Numbered from the stretch's first letter, positions 8,641 through 16,207 are shown. The stretch is 40,078 bases of DNA from a bacterium (GCA_030649835.1 JAUSES010000004.1:1-40078), one strand, 5' to 3'. Numbers and translations: made by a program. Notes: generated by a model not told the origin, from the letters alone.

Positions 8641-10713
8641 CTATTTTACCAACTGCTCCCTAAGCATAATTATCTCATCACGAAGTATCGCCGCGGTTTC
8701 AAAGTCGAGCTCCTTCACTGCTTTGCTCATTTCCTTCTCCTTCAGCTTCAAAAGTTTTTGAGGGTCTTTTATGAAAATTTGAGAGTCAATATTTAAGTTC
8801 ATCTTGACCGCTTTCATATGGTCAGTTTCAAGATGCTCAGTAATATCCTTGATTTGTTTAATGATTGTTTTTGGAGTGATGCCGTGTTCTTTGTTGTACG
8901 CAACCTGTATCGCACGACGACGACTTGTTTCTTTGACTGCGCGCTCGATGGAACCAGTTATATTTTCGGCATAGAGGATTACGCGCCCTTCTACGTTACG
9001 CGCAGCACGACCTATTATCTGAATAAGCGCTGTCTCAGAGCGAAGAAAGCCCTCCTTGTCTGCGTCGAGAATACCAATGAGCGTCACTTCTGGGAGGTCG
9101 AGCCCCTCACGGAGGAGGTTCACCCCAACAATGCAGTCAAAAGTACCCCTTCTGAATTCAGTCAGAATCTGGATGCGTTCAATCGTTTTTATGTCGCTAT
9201 GTAAATACTCGGCTTTGATACCCTCCCCTTTTAGATACTCTGAAAGATCCTCCGCCATTTTTTTGGTAAGAGTAGTAGCAATGACACGCCCGCCTTTTTG
9301 TACTGCTTTCTTTGTTTCTGAAATGAAATCTTGAATTTGACCCCTATACTCGCTTTGCGGGTCGGGCGAACCGCCCATGGAAGTTTTGGCGGTTTTAGCC
9401 TTGTATGCTCCTTTTTCTAGAATTGGACGAATTGATATTTCAGGATCAATGAGGCCTGTCGGGCGAATCACCTGCTCTACTACCTGAGAGCTGTTTTCCT
9501 TTTCGTAGGTAGAAGGTGTAGCTGATGTGAAAATCATTTGACCCACACGCTCATGGAACTCCTCCGAGCGAAGGGGCCTGTTGTCCATTGCGGACGGCAA
9601 GCGAAAACCAAATTCAACGAGTGTCTTTTTGCGTGACTGGTCCCCTGCATACATACCACCGATTTGCGGAATGGTCACGTGCGACTCGTCTATGACAGTA
9701 AGGAAGTCTGGCTTGCCGTCCTTTGTGCGGGGAAAGTACGAGAGTAGAGTATCGGGTGCCGAACCCGCCGGTCGCCCTGACATTGGCCGTGAATAGTTCT
9801 CTATACCACTACAGTATCCCACCTCACGGATCATGGCGAGGTCGTAGGTGGTGCGACGCTTTAAACGCTCTGCCTCAAGGAGCTTCCCTTCTTTCTCAAA
9901 CTTTTTGAGCTGGGCATCAAGCTCTGTCTTAATGACTTTCATCGCACGTGCCTTTTCCTTGTCGTTGGTAATAAAGTGCTTGGCTGGGAAAACAAAAATG
10001 GACTCTGGGGTGTCTGTAATTCTTTGTGATACTGGATCAACTTTATTAATTAATTGTATCCCTCTTGCATCGAGTGTTAGGCTCCAAACTATTTTCTCAG
10101 ACACTGGCATTATCTCGATAAGCGCACCAATGGAGCGAAATGTTCCCGGCGTGAGGTCAGCGTTTGTGCGGGTGAAATGAATGTTGATGAGGTTCATCAT
10201 GAGGCTTTTGCGGTCAATTTTTTGACCAGCAAAAAGTTTCATATTTTCTTTTTCATATTCTGCAGGCGAGCCCAAACCATAAATACAAGAAACTGATGCC
10301 ACGATGATGACGTCTTTCCTTGTGAGAAGCGCCTGTGTGGATGCGTGGCGAAGGCGGTCAATCTCTTCGTTAATCTGCGCATCCTTCTCAATGTATGTGT
10401 CGGTCGTCGGCATGTACGCCTCCGGCTGATAGTAGTCGTAGTATGACACAAAGTAGTGCACCGCATTGTTGGGGAAAAACTCTTTGTATTCCTGCGCGAG
10501 CTGAGCGGCAAGCGTTTTGTTGTGTGCGATGACAAGAGTGGGCTTGCCTACAGTGGCGATGATATTCGCCATGGTAAATGTTTTCCCCGAACCCGTCACA
10601 CCGAGGAGTGTCTGCGCCCGCATCCCCTTTTTCAACCCACCCAAAAGCTCCTTGATCGCCTTTGGCTGATCCCCCGCAGGAGGCCACGCTGATTTTAGGT
10701 TAAATACTGGCAT
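8641..10713 (-). CDS. uvrB: Excinuclease ABC subunit B
   Basis: LLGVTGSGKTFTMANII, YFVSYYDYYQPEAYMPTTDTYIEKD, DCIVGVNLLREGLDLPEVTLIGILDADKEGFLRS, C-terminal UVR motif. Start MPVFNLKS. Confidence 0.98.
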   Translation of the reverse strand: MPVFNLKSAWPPAGDQPKAIKELLGGLKKGMRAQTLLGVTGSGKTFTMANIIATVGKPTLVIAHNKTLAAQLAQEYKEFFPNNAVHYFVSYYDYYQPEAYMPTTDTYIEKDAQINEEIDRLRHASTQALLTRKDVIIVASVSCIYGLGSPAEYEKENMKLFAGQKIDRKSLMMNLINIHFTRTNADLTPGTFRSIGALIEIMPVSEKIVWSLTLDARGIQLINKVDPVSQRITDTPESIFVFPAKHFITNDKEKARAMKVIKTELDAQLKKFEKEGKLLEAERLKRRTTYDLAMIREVGYCSGIENYSRPMSGRPAGSAPDTLLSYFPRTKDGKPDFLTVIDESHVTIPQIGGMYAGDQSRKKTLVEFGFRLPSAMDNRPLRSEEFHERVGQMIFTSATPSTYEKENSSQVVEQVIRPTGLIDPEISIRPILEKGAYKAKTAKTSMGGSPDPQSEYRGQIQDFISETKKAVQKGGRVIATTLTKKMAEDLSEYLKGEGIKAEYLHSDIKTIERIQILTEFRRGTFDCIVGVNLLREGLDLPEVTLIGILDADKEGFLRSETALIQIIGRAARNVEGRVILYAENITGSIERAVKETSRRRAIQVAYNKEHGITPKTIIKQIKDITEHLETDHMKAVKMNLNIDSQIFIKDPQKLLKLKEKEMSKAVKELDFETAAILRDEIIMLREQLVK

Positions 10714-10804
10714 GAGTTGACAATATAGCACGAAAGAGTGGTTATTGATAATAATTTGCTTAACAATTATTTATTGTCGTCAACAGGTCGAAACCAAAGT
10801 TACA

Positions 10805-10945
10805 CTAAAATCCAAAAATGAAAAAAGCAACAAGTGCAAGCGATGCGAATATTAGCAATTCAAAAATACTAGTTACAACAAAATCTTTTAGCCCTGCAAA
10901 AAATTGGACGTTCACAACGTGTAAAAAATGTTTTATTTTTTCCAT
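10805..10945 (-). CDS. Small single-TM peptide (46 aa)
   Basis: Manual translation: MEKIKHFLHVVNVQFFAGLKDFVVTSIFELLIFASLALVAFFIFGF*. Confidence 0.45.
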   Translation of the reverse strand: MEKIKHFLHVVNVQFFAGLKDFVVTSIFELLIFASLALVAFFIFGF

Positions 10946-10983
10946 ATTTTATATTTTGTGTAGCATGTCTTAAAAAAGGCATG

Positions 10984-11307
10984 CTACTGCTCCTTACTTC
11001 TTCCATTAAAATATTTCAAAATCTCTATCAGACCTTTGTGTAAAAAGAAGATTATGATTGGAAGAAGTAGAAGAGAAAAAAAAGTAACAATAACTAAAAA
11101 AGAAGTTAGAATATCCTTTCCCGATAAGATCAGGAAAACAGAAAAAACCATAGCTGCAACAATCTCAGCTAAATAGAGAGATAAAATAAAAGATGCTCTC
11201 GATTTTTCAGCAGGAGGTTTTTTTAGTGTTTGTTTTGGTTCTATCATTTTAAAAAACGCGTGAAAATGGGAGTTAGGATTACTTATCTTTATTCTTTGAT
11301 TGATCAT
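10984..11307 (-). CDS. Small membrane protein (two predicted TM helices)
   Basis: ASFILSLYLAEIVAAMVFSVFLILSG...ILTSFLVIVTFFSLLLLPIIIFFL; start may be internal Met at 11247. Confidence 0.6.
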   Translation of the reverse strand: MINQRIKISNPNSHFHAFFKMIEPKQTLKKPPAEKSRASFILSLYLAEIVAAMVFSVFLILSGKDILTSFLVIVTFFSLLLLPIIIFFLHKGLIEILKYFNGRSKEQ

Positions 11308-11695
11308 CGAGCTTAAAAGAATACTGATAGTTTGCGTACAAGAACAGACCGAAAATCAGGTTTCCAAAAAGTAGCGCATAAACTGCTCCTAGTTCGTGAG
11401 ATATTGTATAAGAGTAGACCGTCATTATATTTTTAAGAATCAAAATAAATACACCCGCATAAAAAAAAGTTCTCCAAAATTGAGCATTCTTTATTTTGCG
11501 TAAAAAAACTACATTAAATAAAAAAATGGAAGAAATAGCATAATATGCTATTTCTGGCGATACTTTATTGAAACCAAAATAAAGTTTGTTCATTAAAATA
11601 TTAAAAACAGAAAAAGTTATATTGAATAAAAAAAGTAACGCCAACATAAACATTATCACATAAAAAATGTTGTCACCTATATTTGATTTTTCCAT
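11279..11695 (-). CDS. Small multi-TM membrane protein
   Basis: MEKSNIGDNIFYVIMFMLALLFLFNITFSVFNILMNKLYF...; about four hydrophobic segments. Start ATG 11695, 17 nt beyond the terminator hairpin. Confidence 0.6.
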   Translation of the reverse strand: MEKSNIGDNIFYVIMFMLALLFLFNITFSVFNILMNKLYFGFNKVSPEIAYYAISSIFLFNVVFLRKIKNAQFWRTFFYAGVFILILKNIMTVYSYTISHELGAVYALLFGNLIFGLFLYANYQYSFKLDDQSKNKDK

Positions 11696-11711
11696 AATTT
11701 TAAAATTGATT

Positions 11712-11746
11712 AAAAAAGAGGGGTAGATAATATAATCCACCCCTCT
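11712..11746 (-). terminator. Intrinsic terminator after the putative precursor-peptide gene
   Basis: Minus strand AGAGGGGTGGATTATATTATCTACCCCTCT then TTTTT. Confidence 0.8.
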
Positions 11747-11764
11747 CATTGTTAATTATCCCGT

Positions 11765-12088
11765 TTAAACGGGCAACCCTATCTCCCTTGCAAAAATAAT
11801 CAAGGATGGACTACTTGTCACCCACTGAGGATCTGTGATCCATTTGTAATACATATAGGTGACACTTACAAGTGTCCACACCCCCATCACCACGACCCAG
11901 TTTTCTCCCCTAACTTCCCCCGCTTTCTCATCCGAAAGTGGCATGAGTTGCATCGCATCAATTTCCGATAGGGTTGCGGTGGGATTTGCAGCAAGCGAAG
12001 TGTTAACTTCGCTTGCGTAGGTCGCTGTTGTAAACAAGGTGGTACAAGCAAATACCACCGCCAAAAGTAAAGCTGTTACTTTTTTCAT
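11765..12088 (-). CDS. Secreted precursor-like peptide: signal peptide, double-glycine-like leader motif, Trp/Tyr-rich hydrophobic core
   Basis: MKKVTALLLAVVFACTTLFTTATYASEVNTSLAANPTATLSEIDAMQLMPLSDEKAGEVRG-ENWVVVMGVWTLVSVTYMYYKWITDPQWVTSSPSLIIFAREIGLPV; SD AGGGAG 7 nt before ATG 12088. Confidence 0.65.
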   Translation of the reverse strand: MKKVTALLLAVVFACTTLFTTATYASEVNTSLAANPTATLSEIDAMQLMPLSDEKAGEVRGENWVVVMGVWTLVSVTYMYYKWITDPQWVTSSPSLIIFAREIGLPV

Positions 12089-12185
12089 CTGTATACTCCC
12101 TAATTTAAGTTGAAGGAACTGCTTTTCAGACACGATGACCTGTATCTGATATAAAATATACACGAAGCGAGTTTTGAAATCAATA

Positions 12186-12214
12186 TTGACAGGGGGGGGA
12201 AGGTAAGGTATGAT
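12186..12214 (+). promoter_or_regulatory. Consensus sigma70-like promoter for the barrel/C39 operon
   Basis: TTGACA (12186-12191), 17-nt spacer containing a G8 tract, TATGAT (12209-12214). Confidence 0.8.
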
Positions 12215-12280
12215 GGCGAAAGTTAGTGAATCACCTTGGTGGTTTACTTTTTTGTTCTTAAATATAGATGGGAGAAATAA

Positions 12281-13114
12281 ATGAAAGTAAAGCTGATAGC
12301 TGTATGCGCCTTACTGATTGTTACAACCTCTGCGCTTGCTGAAGAAGCAATCCCGGTAACCAATCAAGATGAACTCGGTATGGACCAAAAACTTGCGCGC
12401 GTATACGACCTATATCGTAAAGGCGACACAGTTTCACTCAAGCCGAGCGAAATGCAGATGGGTGTTGGTGTGGCCTACACAACTAGCAACAAAGAAACAT
12501 TTGGTTTACGGCAGAGTGCTCGCACTCTCTCGACACAAGTTTTTGCAAGTCGTGGTATTGGTTCTGGTATGGAAGTTTCTGTGTCTGTACCGTATCTTGC
12601 GCAATCACAGCGTGTTGAAACATCAAGCGAGGCACTTGCAAGAAATGAGCTTTACGGTATAGGTGACCCAACAGTGCGAGTCATGAAGATACTTTCGACG
12701 AAGGAGGTAAGTACAACGGGGATTCTCTCGGTGTCACTTCCTTGGGGAAAAGACGAGCTCTCTCGCAGGGAGACTCACACTTCTCTGGGTGCAAGCTGGA
12801 GCAAGGTTTTACGTCCGGCGTTTATAACGGGAGGTCTCACGTGGGAACGTGATTGGAAAAGCGATGTCAATGGTCTCGGCTACAATGCGGGACTTGGCTT
12901 TTTTCTCAACCATGCTCTTTCGGTTGGTGGTGAACTGTCGGGTGTTGCAGTGCTTAATCCAAAAATGGGAGCAACGCGAGACAGCATGGCACTAGGTCTC
13001 AAGGTTGCATATCAAACAGTACCAGACTTTGGTGTTGTTGTGCTTACAAACTTTGCAGTTGCAACTGACACACCGCAATCAACAATTGGTGTTACCACCT
13101 ACTGGAGGTTTTGA
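12281..13114 (+). CDS. Signal-peptide-bearing beta-barrel-like (outer-membrane-type) protein
   Basis: Signal peptide MKVKLIAVCALLIVTTSALA|EE; then alternating amphipathic strands (MEVSVSVPYL, TGILSVSLPWG, HTSLGASWSKV, NAGLGFFLNHALSVGGELSG, MALGLKVAYQ) ending TTYWRF with C-terminal Phe; SD GGGAG. Confidence 0.72.
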   Translation: MKVKLIAVCALLIVTTSALAEEAIPVTNQDELGMDQKLARVYDLYRKGDTVSLKPSEMQMGVGVAYTTSNKETFGLRQSARTLSTQVFASRGIGSGMEVSVSVPYLAQSQRVETSSEALARNELYGIGDPTVRVMKILSTKEVSTTGILSVSLPWGKDELSRRETHTSLGASWSKVLRPAFITGGLTWERDWKSDVNGLGYNAGLGFFLNHALSVGGELSGVAVLNPKMGATRDSMALGLKVAYQTVPDFGVVVLTNFAVATDTPQSTIGVTTYWRF

Positions 13115-13764
13115 TGAAAAAAGTATGGACGTTGGCTCTTGTTTTACTCACTCTCTCAAGTCCAACTCGGGCATCACCTGATGCGCCATGGACATGGGAG
13201 GAAGTGCGCTTTGGCGGAATAATGGAGCAAGGTCTAGATAATTCCTGTGGCCTTGCATCACTTCTTACTATCATGCGGACACACTTCGGTGATGAGCGAT
13301 TTGACGAACAGTCGCTTCTCAAAAAATATATGGATGATGCTAGCGAAGCAGAGCTTGCTCTATCCATGAGAAACGGACTTTCACTCCTTGAGCTCGAGAA
13401 ACTCACACAGTCAATCGGATATACCACGGCAAAAAAGGTATTAACTTTGGGAGAACTTGAACGACTTATATCTTTTGTCCCCGTTCTTGTGTATCTTGAG
13501 ATCGGAAAACTGCGACACTTCACTGTAGTACGCGGAGTAAACAAAGAGTCTGTTCTTTTGGGAGATCCCTCGCGCGGAAATGTAGAATACTCGCGCGATG
13601 AATTTATGTCTGAATGGAAAACATTAAAAGATTTCCCAGAAAAAACAGGAGTGGCGTTAATTATCGTACGAAACGAAGGAGTGTTTGCGCAAAAACTTCT
13701 CAAGGAACCAGCATCTTACGACTCTGCATCTTTTATTGAAATACGAAGACAAATGATTAAATAG
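13114..13764 (+). CDS. Secreted C39-family cysteine peptidase-like protein
   Basis: Signal peptide MKKVWTLALVLLTLSSPTRA; C39 Cys motif GLDNSCGLASLLTIM and HFTVVRGVNKESVLLGDPSRG (His/Asp region); ATG overlaps the upstream TGA; SD GGAGG. Confidence 0.85.
   Translation: MKKVWTLALVLLTLSSPTRASPDAPWTWEEVRFGGIMEQGLDNSCGLASLLTIMRTHFGDERFDEQSLLKKYMDDASEAELALSMRNGLSLLELEKLTQSIGYTTAKKVLTLGELERLISFVPVLVYLEIGKLRHFTVVRGVNKESVLLGDPSRGNVEYSRDEFMSEWKTLKDFPEKTGVALIIVRNEGVFAQKLLKEPASYDSASFIEIRRQMIK

Positions 13765-13800: not shown

Positions 13801-13803
<3 letters not shown>
13775..13803 (+). terminator. Intrinsic terminator after the C39 gene
   Basis: AGGCGAATCA-ATT-TGATTCGCCT followed by TTTTT. Confidence 0.85.

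Positions 13804-16207
<2,404 letters not shown>

Follow-up and report, generated by a model that had tools for sequence, protein, structure and literature searches.

What might a reduced-genome bacterium, in an order in which Omp85 is missing, do with an exported peptidase, an outer-membrane-type barrel gene and a secreted peptide precursor? These lie in the window, by which we mean the whole stretch of DNA that was analysed (40,078 nucleotides), in an island flanked on the left by uvrB (8641–10731, minus strand) and on the right by tgt (13801–15075, minus strand). ORF calls in the window place five genes in this gap. From their sequences, we propose that the island is probably a bacteriocin-type toxin–immunity cassette that also carries genes for maturing its peptide outside the cytoplasm. 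The preliminary description of 10805–13764 had correctly seen a module here but overlooked two membrane-protein genes (11279–11695 and 10984–11307), the first of which proved to be a conserved part of it. A small ORF at the left edge (10818–10973) found no support.

The host genome and the uvrB–tgt gap

The host genome is 1.06 Mb in size with a completeness of 98%, and genome sizes across its order range from about 0.4 to 1.4 Mb; the small genomes of the host and of the order throughout fit the candidate phyla radiation. A monoderm wall has been reported for the few members of this radiation in which the wall has been described (PMC8871954). With a PF01103 profile that was positive in seven diderm controls, Omp85 was absent from the host genome and from the order at large (0/322 genomes), in line with the earlier suspicion that the host, if it belongs to this radiation, would lack a Gram-negative outer membrane.

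The island is absent from ten genus-mates, in which uvrB and tgt lie close together. Other small ORFs, unrelated to those of the island, occupy the uvrB–tgt gap in two genus-mates (L046 6684–8163 and L047 7227–8013), and the gap may thus be a common insertion site.

The exported peptidase and the barrel-like protein

The ORF at 13114–13764 (plus strand, best start ATG 13114) encodes an exported, stand-alone C39 cysteine peptidase of 216 residues that contains GLDNSCGLASLL, carries its own signal peptide and has no ABC-transporter domain attached. Its score against PF03412 is 64.5 bits (cut-off 22; 69.5 bits for the orthologue in a second genome, G055), which bears out the exported C39-like cysteine peptidase claimed earlier. 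The catalytic residues Gln39, Cys45, His135 and Asp151 are invariant among 11 aligned stand-alone C39 proteins, so that the alignment of catalytic Cys and His, put forward earlier as a check, is in register across all 11; the His and Asp of the window protein also align with those of ComA. Its predicted structure is of medium confidence (pLDDT 58.9), and the best Foldseek matches of the model are the peptidase domains of ComA and PCAT1. The best NCBIfam models are FapD (65.3 bits, cut-off 330) and FilB (47 bits, cut-off 475), both scores being far under the cut-off. Among the genomes searched, close orthologues occur only in the window and in G055. Other C39-like matches in the phylum were weak, partial or cytoplasmic-looking and were not counted as orthologues, and a 158-residue C39 protein in G202, without a signal peptide and adjoining an AAA protein and an aminotransferase, was rejected as one. 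Host contig C23 encodes an 889-residue repeat protein, one stretch of which weakly resembles C39 (L104 25–2694; 18 bits, under the cut-off).

The peptidase gene starts within the stop of the gene before it, at a TGATG junction, as the earlier report of overlapping barrel and C39 genes implied. That upstream gene (12281–13114, plus strand) encodes a 277-residue exported protein, a distant PF13557 relative, with a signal peptide and the C-terminal YWRF that had been described. The sequence evidence for a barrel is no more than suggestive, and we therefore use the term barrel-like. Against PF13557 (cut-off 22) the window protein, at 18.2 bits, stays under the cut-off, and the G055 orthologue, at 23.3 bits, passes it. 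Profile comparison by hhalign matched the protein, through 109 C-terminal columns, to barrel-type proteins beside plasmid C39 genes (probability 42%, E 2.7e-4), with both profiles ending together at the C-terminus. Its beta amphipathicity exceeded that of shuffles on the octanol scale (z 2.6) but not on the Kyte–Doolittle scale (z 1.0). Because the protein has too few relatives, an AlphaFold2 model built from a two-sequence alignment (pLDDT 31.5) was not usable. A search of the PDB with its profile and a tblastn search of plasmid records gave no matches.

The module recurs in G055, a genome of the same order and a different family, between ruvB and a yebC-like gene. The G055 proteins are 69% (C39) and 63% (barrel) identical to those of the window, and the layout is the same, with the C39 and barrel genes overlapping on one strand and a precursor and membrane protein divergent from them. 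Co-occurrence elsewhere, another of the checks proposed, was thus found at a different site, and recurrence of the whole arrangement at another locus of a second genome argues for more than chance. The earlier view that peptidase, barrel-like protein and a Sec-exported double-glycine-type substrate form one module stands: G055 preserves the order and overlap of the genes, the divergent promoter and the leader, and the layout also occurs on diderm plasmids.

The promoter previously described as TTGACA-17-TATGAT was confirmed at 12186–12214 (plus strand), where TTGACA (12186–12191) and TATGAT (12209–12214), 17 bases apart, form a promoter-like site for the barrel and C39 genes. Facing away from it, a TTGATT-17-TATATT site (12155–12183, minus strand) precedes the precursor gene, and the two divergent −35 boxes overlap in a palindrome, TCAATATTGA (12180–12189), that is conserved in G055. 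The equivalents there are TTGACA-17-TATTGT on the barrel/C39 arm and TTGACC-17-TACACT on the precursor arm, so that all four sites share a 17-base spacer. A run of eight G residues (G8, 12192–12199) lies in the spacer of the barrel–C39 promoter and is the sole run of G or C of at least seven in the window; changes in its length could switch this promoter, a possible case of phase variation.

The barrel gene is present in 2/397 genomes of the order. Between the window and G055, pN/pS is 0.31 for the barrel and 0.26 for C39, and synonymous change is near-saturated, which indicates that selection has kept both genes. An outer-membrane-type barrel gene under selection in a lineage without Omp85 is a puzzle, and one answer is that only the precursor and immunity part of an acquired diderm cassette works here, with the barrel a functionless passenger for want of Omp85. 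This explanation overlaps the bacteriocin-type reading and differs from it only on the barrel; the lack of Omp85 throughout the order, the ten genus-mates without the island and a third genome (G142) that keeps precursors with C39 and barrel undetected all speak for it. We nevertheless hold it to be unlikely, as the gene is intact in two families, its 63% identity, pN/pS and near-saturated synonymous change point to long retention by selection, and tblastn against plasmid records found no close diderm donor. A bolder answer, which we likewise regard as unlikely, is that the host, as a monoderm with a reduced genome, employs a true beta-barrel in a peptide weapon although it has no Omp85 machinery; the barrel might, for example, be released with the peptide and act on the outer membrane of Gram-negative neighbours, or be inserted in an unrecognised outer layer of the host itself.

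Precursors and small membrane proteins

The precursor gene (11765–12088, minus strand; best start ATG 12088, preceded by GGGAG) encodes 107 residues, comprising a Sec-type signal peptide at about residues 1–26, a leader that ends in LSDEKAGEVRG and a hydrophobic core; the tail of 46 residues reported earlier is exactly that long. Throughout, we assigned signal peptides and membrane spans by eye or from simple hydropathy. We identified seven precursors of this family in three genomes, one in the window, three in G055 and three in G142, which represents a third family; one G142 copy lacks its 5′ end. Convincing leader paralogues were found in only 3/397 genomes, with leader matches of E > 1e-4 taken as chance (G056, G202 and others). 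The G202 match lies inside a long ORF and was rejected.

Leaders in this family are conserved and cores are not. Identity over the last 38 leader residues is 42–100%, and most cores resemble one another no more than shuffled sequences do. The pattern is sharpest in G142, where the DNA of the three leaders is 98–99% identical and the identity stops at the Arg-Gly codons. Precursors are about 105–141 residues long, and their cores, of 44–79 residues, start mostly hydrophobic. In an alignment of 13 precursors that includes the plasmid systems compared below, the Gly is invariant and a Leu ten residues before it is nearly so. The LS...G leader of the window precursor is in the usual register of class II bacteriocins; at residue −1 of that register, however, most precursors of this family have Glu where Gly or Ala would be canonical. 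Because neither C39 nor barrel was detected in G142 beside its three precursors, the maturation genes are either not obligatory or have been replaced there. Between G142 precursors 2 and 3 lies a signal-peptidase-I-like ORF (L094 9750–10523). The third G055 precursor, on contig C10 (L095 4932–8747), has its own 168-residue membrane protein and transposase-like ORFs on its flanks, suggesting that the cassettes move.

A small membrane-protein gene follows five of the six complete precursors, the exception being precursor 2 of G142. In the window this gene (11279–11695, minus strand) encodes a multi-span protein of 138 residues, a candidate immunity protein, whose family extends to G055, with two copies, and to contig C9 of the host. 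The window protein is 44–46% identical to G055 12024 and to the C9 copy. The latter is an orphan partner (L096 2624–3013), with no precursor detected beside it; its identity is 79% with the G055 copy and only about 46% with that of the window. A second membrane-protein family is common to G055 and G142. Farther downstream of the window precursor, the gene at 10984–11307 (minus strand), which overlaps 11279–11695, encodes a two-span protein of 107 residues by hydropathy and may be a second immunity-type gene; its GC is 0.30, against 0.43–0.49 in its neighbours. We found no homologue of its product, and its membership in the module is therefore weak.

Proposed function and known systems

The proposed function starts from what the genomes display directly, namely the gene content, the conserved layout, the catalytic residues, the leader/core pattern, the adjacent membrane gene and purifying selection. 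The precursor would be exported by Sec and lose its signal peptide, after which the exported C39 peptidase, acting outside the cytoplasmic membrane, would cut next to the conserved Gly of LSDxxAxExRG and so remove what is left of the leader, about 35 residues. The product would be a short, hydrophobic, membrane-active core peptide that presumably kills, and the multi-span membrane protein, made together with the precursor, may shield the producer. By analogy to HmcD and FapF, the barrel-like protein, co-produced with the peptidase, could serve as an exit pore or a delivery partner. Conserved leaders with swapped cores and adjacent membrane genes, one of them an orphan, fit a bacteriocin–immunity system. 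The preliminary description had read the island as secreted-peptide maturation, and the features missing from it, the conserved-leader/variable-core pattern and the small membrane neighbours, both favour bacteriocin and immunity over generic maturation. Points against the reading are the Glu at residue −1, the three G142 precursors with C39 and barrel undetected, a membrane partner unrelated to the p250 immunity protein HmcI, and the small number of genomes (3/397) with convincing leader paralogues.

If this is correct, ultra-small bacteria hold peptide weapons and matching immunity, built on one leader with exchangeable cores. Such a system would bear on how ultra-small, probably host-attached bacteria compete and affect their neighbours. 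It would also supply a leader motif to search with (NPxAxxxxIxxxxLxPLSDxxAxExRG) and a defined enzyme–substrate pair, open to tests in ordinary laboratory strains with no need to culture the organism. Our literature search for bacteriocins in genomes of the candidate phyla radiation found nothing specific.

A peptidase, barrel and precursor could also build a surface structure or fibre of the Fap or Fil kind, with C39 maturing a subunit for fibres or adhesion and the barrel serving as its exit, on the model of the Pseudomonas amyloid system. FapD and FilB are the top NCBIfam matches of the peptidase, and FapD, a Sec-exported periplasmic C39 protein, is needed for secretion through FapF (PMC5557850). 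Both scores, however, fall far under the curated cut-offs, and precursors of about 105–141 residues with mutually different hydrophobic cores (44–79 residues), together with the failure to find a repeat-bearing subunit nearby, make a fibre distinctly improbable, quite apart from the adjacent small membrane proteins that it would leave unexplained.

Peptide signals, too, use double-glycine leaders. The trimmed, exported peptides might accordingly be signals or pheromones with the small membrane protein as their receptor or sensor, and ComA is indeed among the closest solved C39 structures. Given cores that are long (44–79 residues), hydrophobic and mutually unrelated, and with no regulator or kinase gene adjoining the module in either the window or G055, we find signalling very doubtful. 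A chimeric assembly, or Gram-negative contamination introduced by binning, would account for the presence of proteins of Gram-negative type in so reduced a genome, but is almost certainly wrong: uvrB and tgt follow the gene order of the genus, the barrel and C39 genes match host composition (though the two precursor-linked membrane-protein genes are AT-rich, at 27–30% GC), and conserved synteny on both sides, with an independent second occurrence elsewhere at 63–69% identity, answers the worry about a misassembly that had been raised.

Among known systems, PCAT/ComA-type ABC transporters that export class II bacteriocins have the C39 fold, the catalytic residues and the LS...G leader register in common with the window; the window C39 protein differs in being unfused and having a signal peptide, and the precursor in having a Sec signal peptide as well. 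That a Sec-exported C39 protein can act outside the cytoplasm together with a barrel has been shown experimentally for Pseudomonas Fap, where periplasmic FapD is required for secretion via the FapF barrel (PMC5557850). The window resembles Fap in this pairing and departs from it in the score of its peptidase (65.3 bits against a FapD cut-off of 330); neither the subunits FapB, FapC and FapE nor amyloid repeats were found in the window or G055 loci, which have small hydrophobic cores instead.

Closer in layout are plasmid-borne cassettes, in which, by tblastn in plasmid records, C39 relatives adjoin barrel-type genes. Unnamed cassettes with the same kinds of parts occur in Deinococcus (CP058537), Acinetobacter (CP127913 and CP114260), E. 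coli (CP051691) and C. jejuni (CP137885); in all of them a Sec signal is combined with a GG-type leader. The Deinococcus precursor, LSDEELDGVTGE, has Glu after the Gly, as do most members of the window family, and in Acinetobacter three precursors share a leader but differ in their cores, with a small gene nearby. Unlike the window, all of these hosts are diderm; C39 identity is about 25%, and the barrels were undetected by tblastn.

The closest known layout is that of the haemocin locus of Avibacterium paragallinarum plasmid p250, for which our comparison rests on the annotated record NC_005245. Besides HmcD and the C39 gene that overlaps it, this locus carries genes for an AAA ATPase, the hemocin precursor and an immunity protein. 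As in the window, a barrel or barrel-like gene overlaps the gene for an exported stand-alone C39 protein (by 17 nt in p250 and as TGATG in the window), and in the hemocin precursor a Sec-type signal peptide precedes a double-glycine-type leader, LSQKEMSEVKGG. The hemocin precursor is followed by the immunity gene, and that of the window by a small membrane-protein gene that is a candidate for this role. By contrast, the window precursor is divergent, whereas that of p250 lies in the same operon; the barrels are only distantly similar (hhalign 42%, E 2.7e-4); the membrane partner in the window is multi-span and unrelated to HmcI, in which the same test sees no membrane protein; and the window host belongs to an order without Omp85. 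The AAA ATPase (HmcB) is absent from the window and G055 loci, and for this reason we do not class the island as a haemocin locus. An AAA ATPase is also unannotated beside the Campylobacter and Deinococcus plasmid C39 genes, so that it is perhaps not essential to systems of this kind. On the strength of these sequence comparisons, we place the island as a putative variant of the haemocin-type layout, with p250 as its closest known counterpart.
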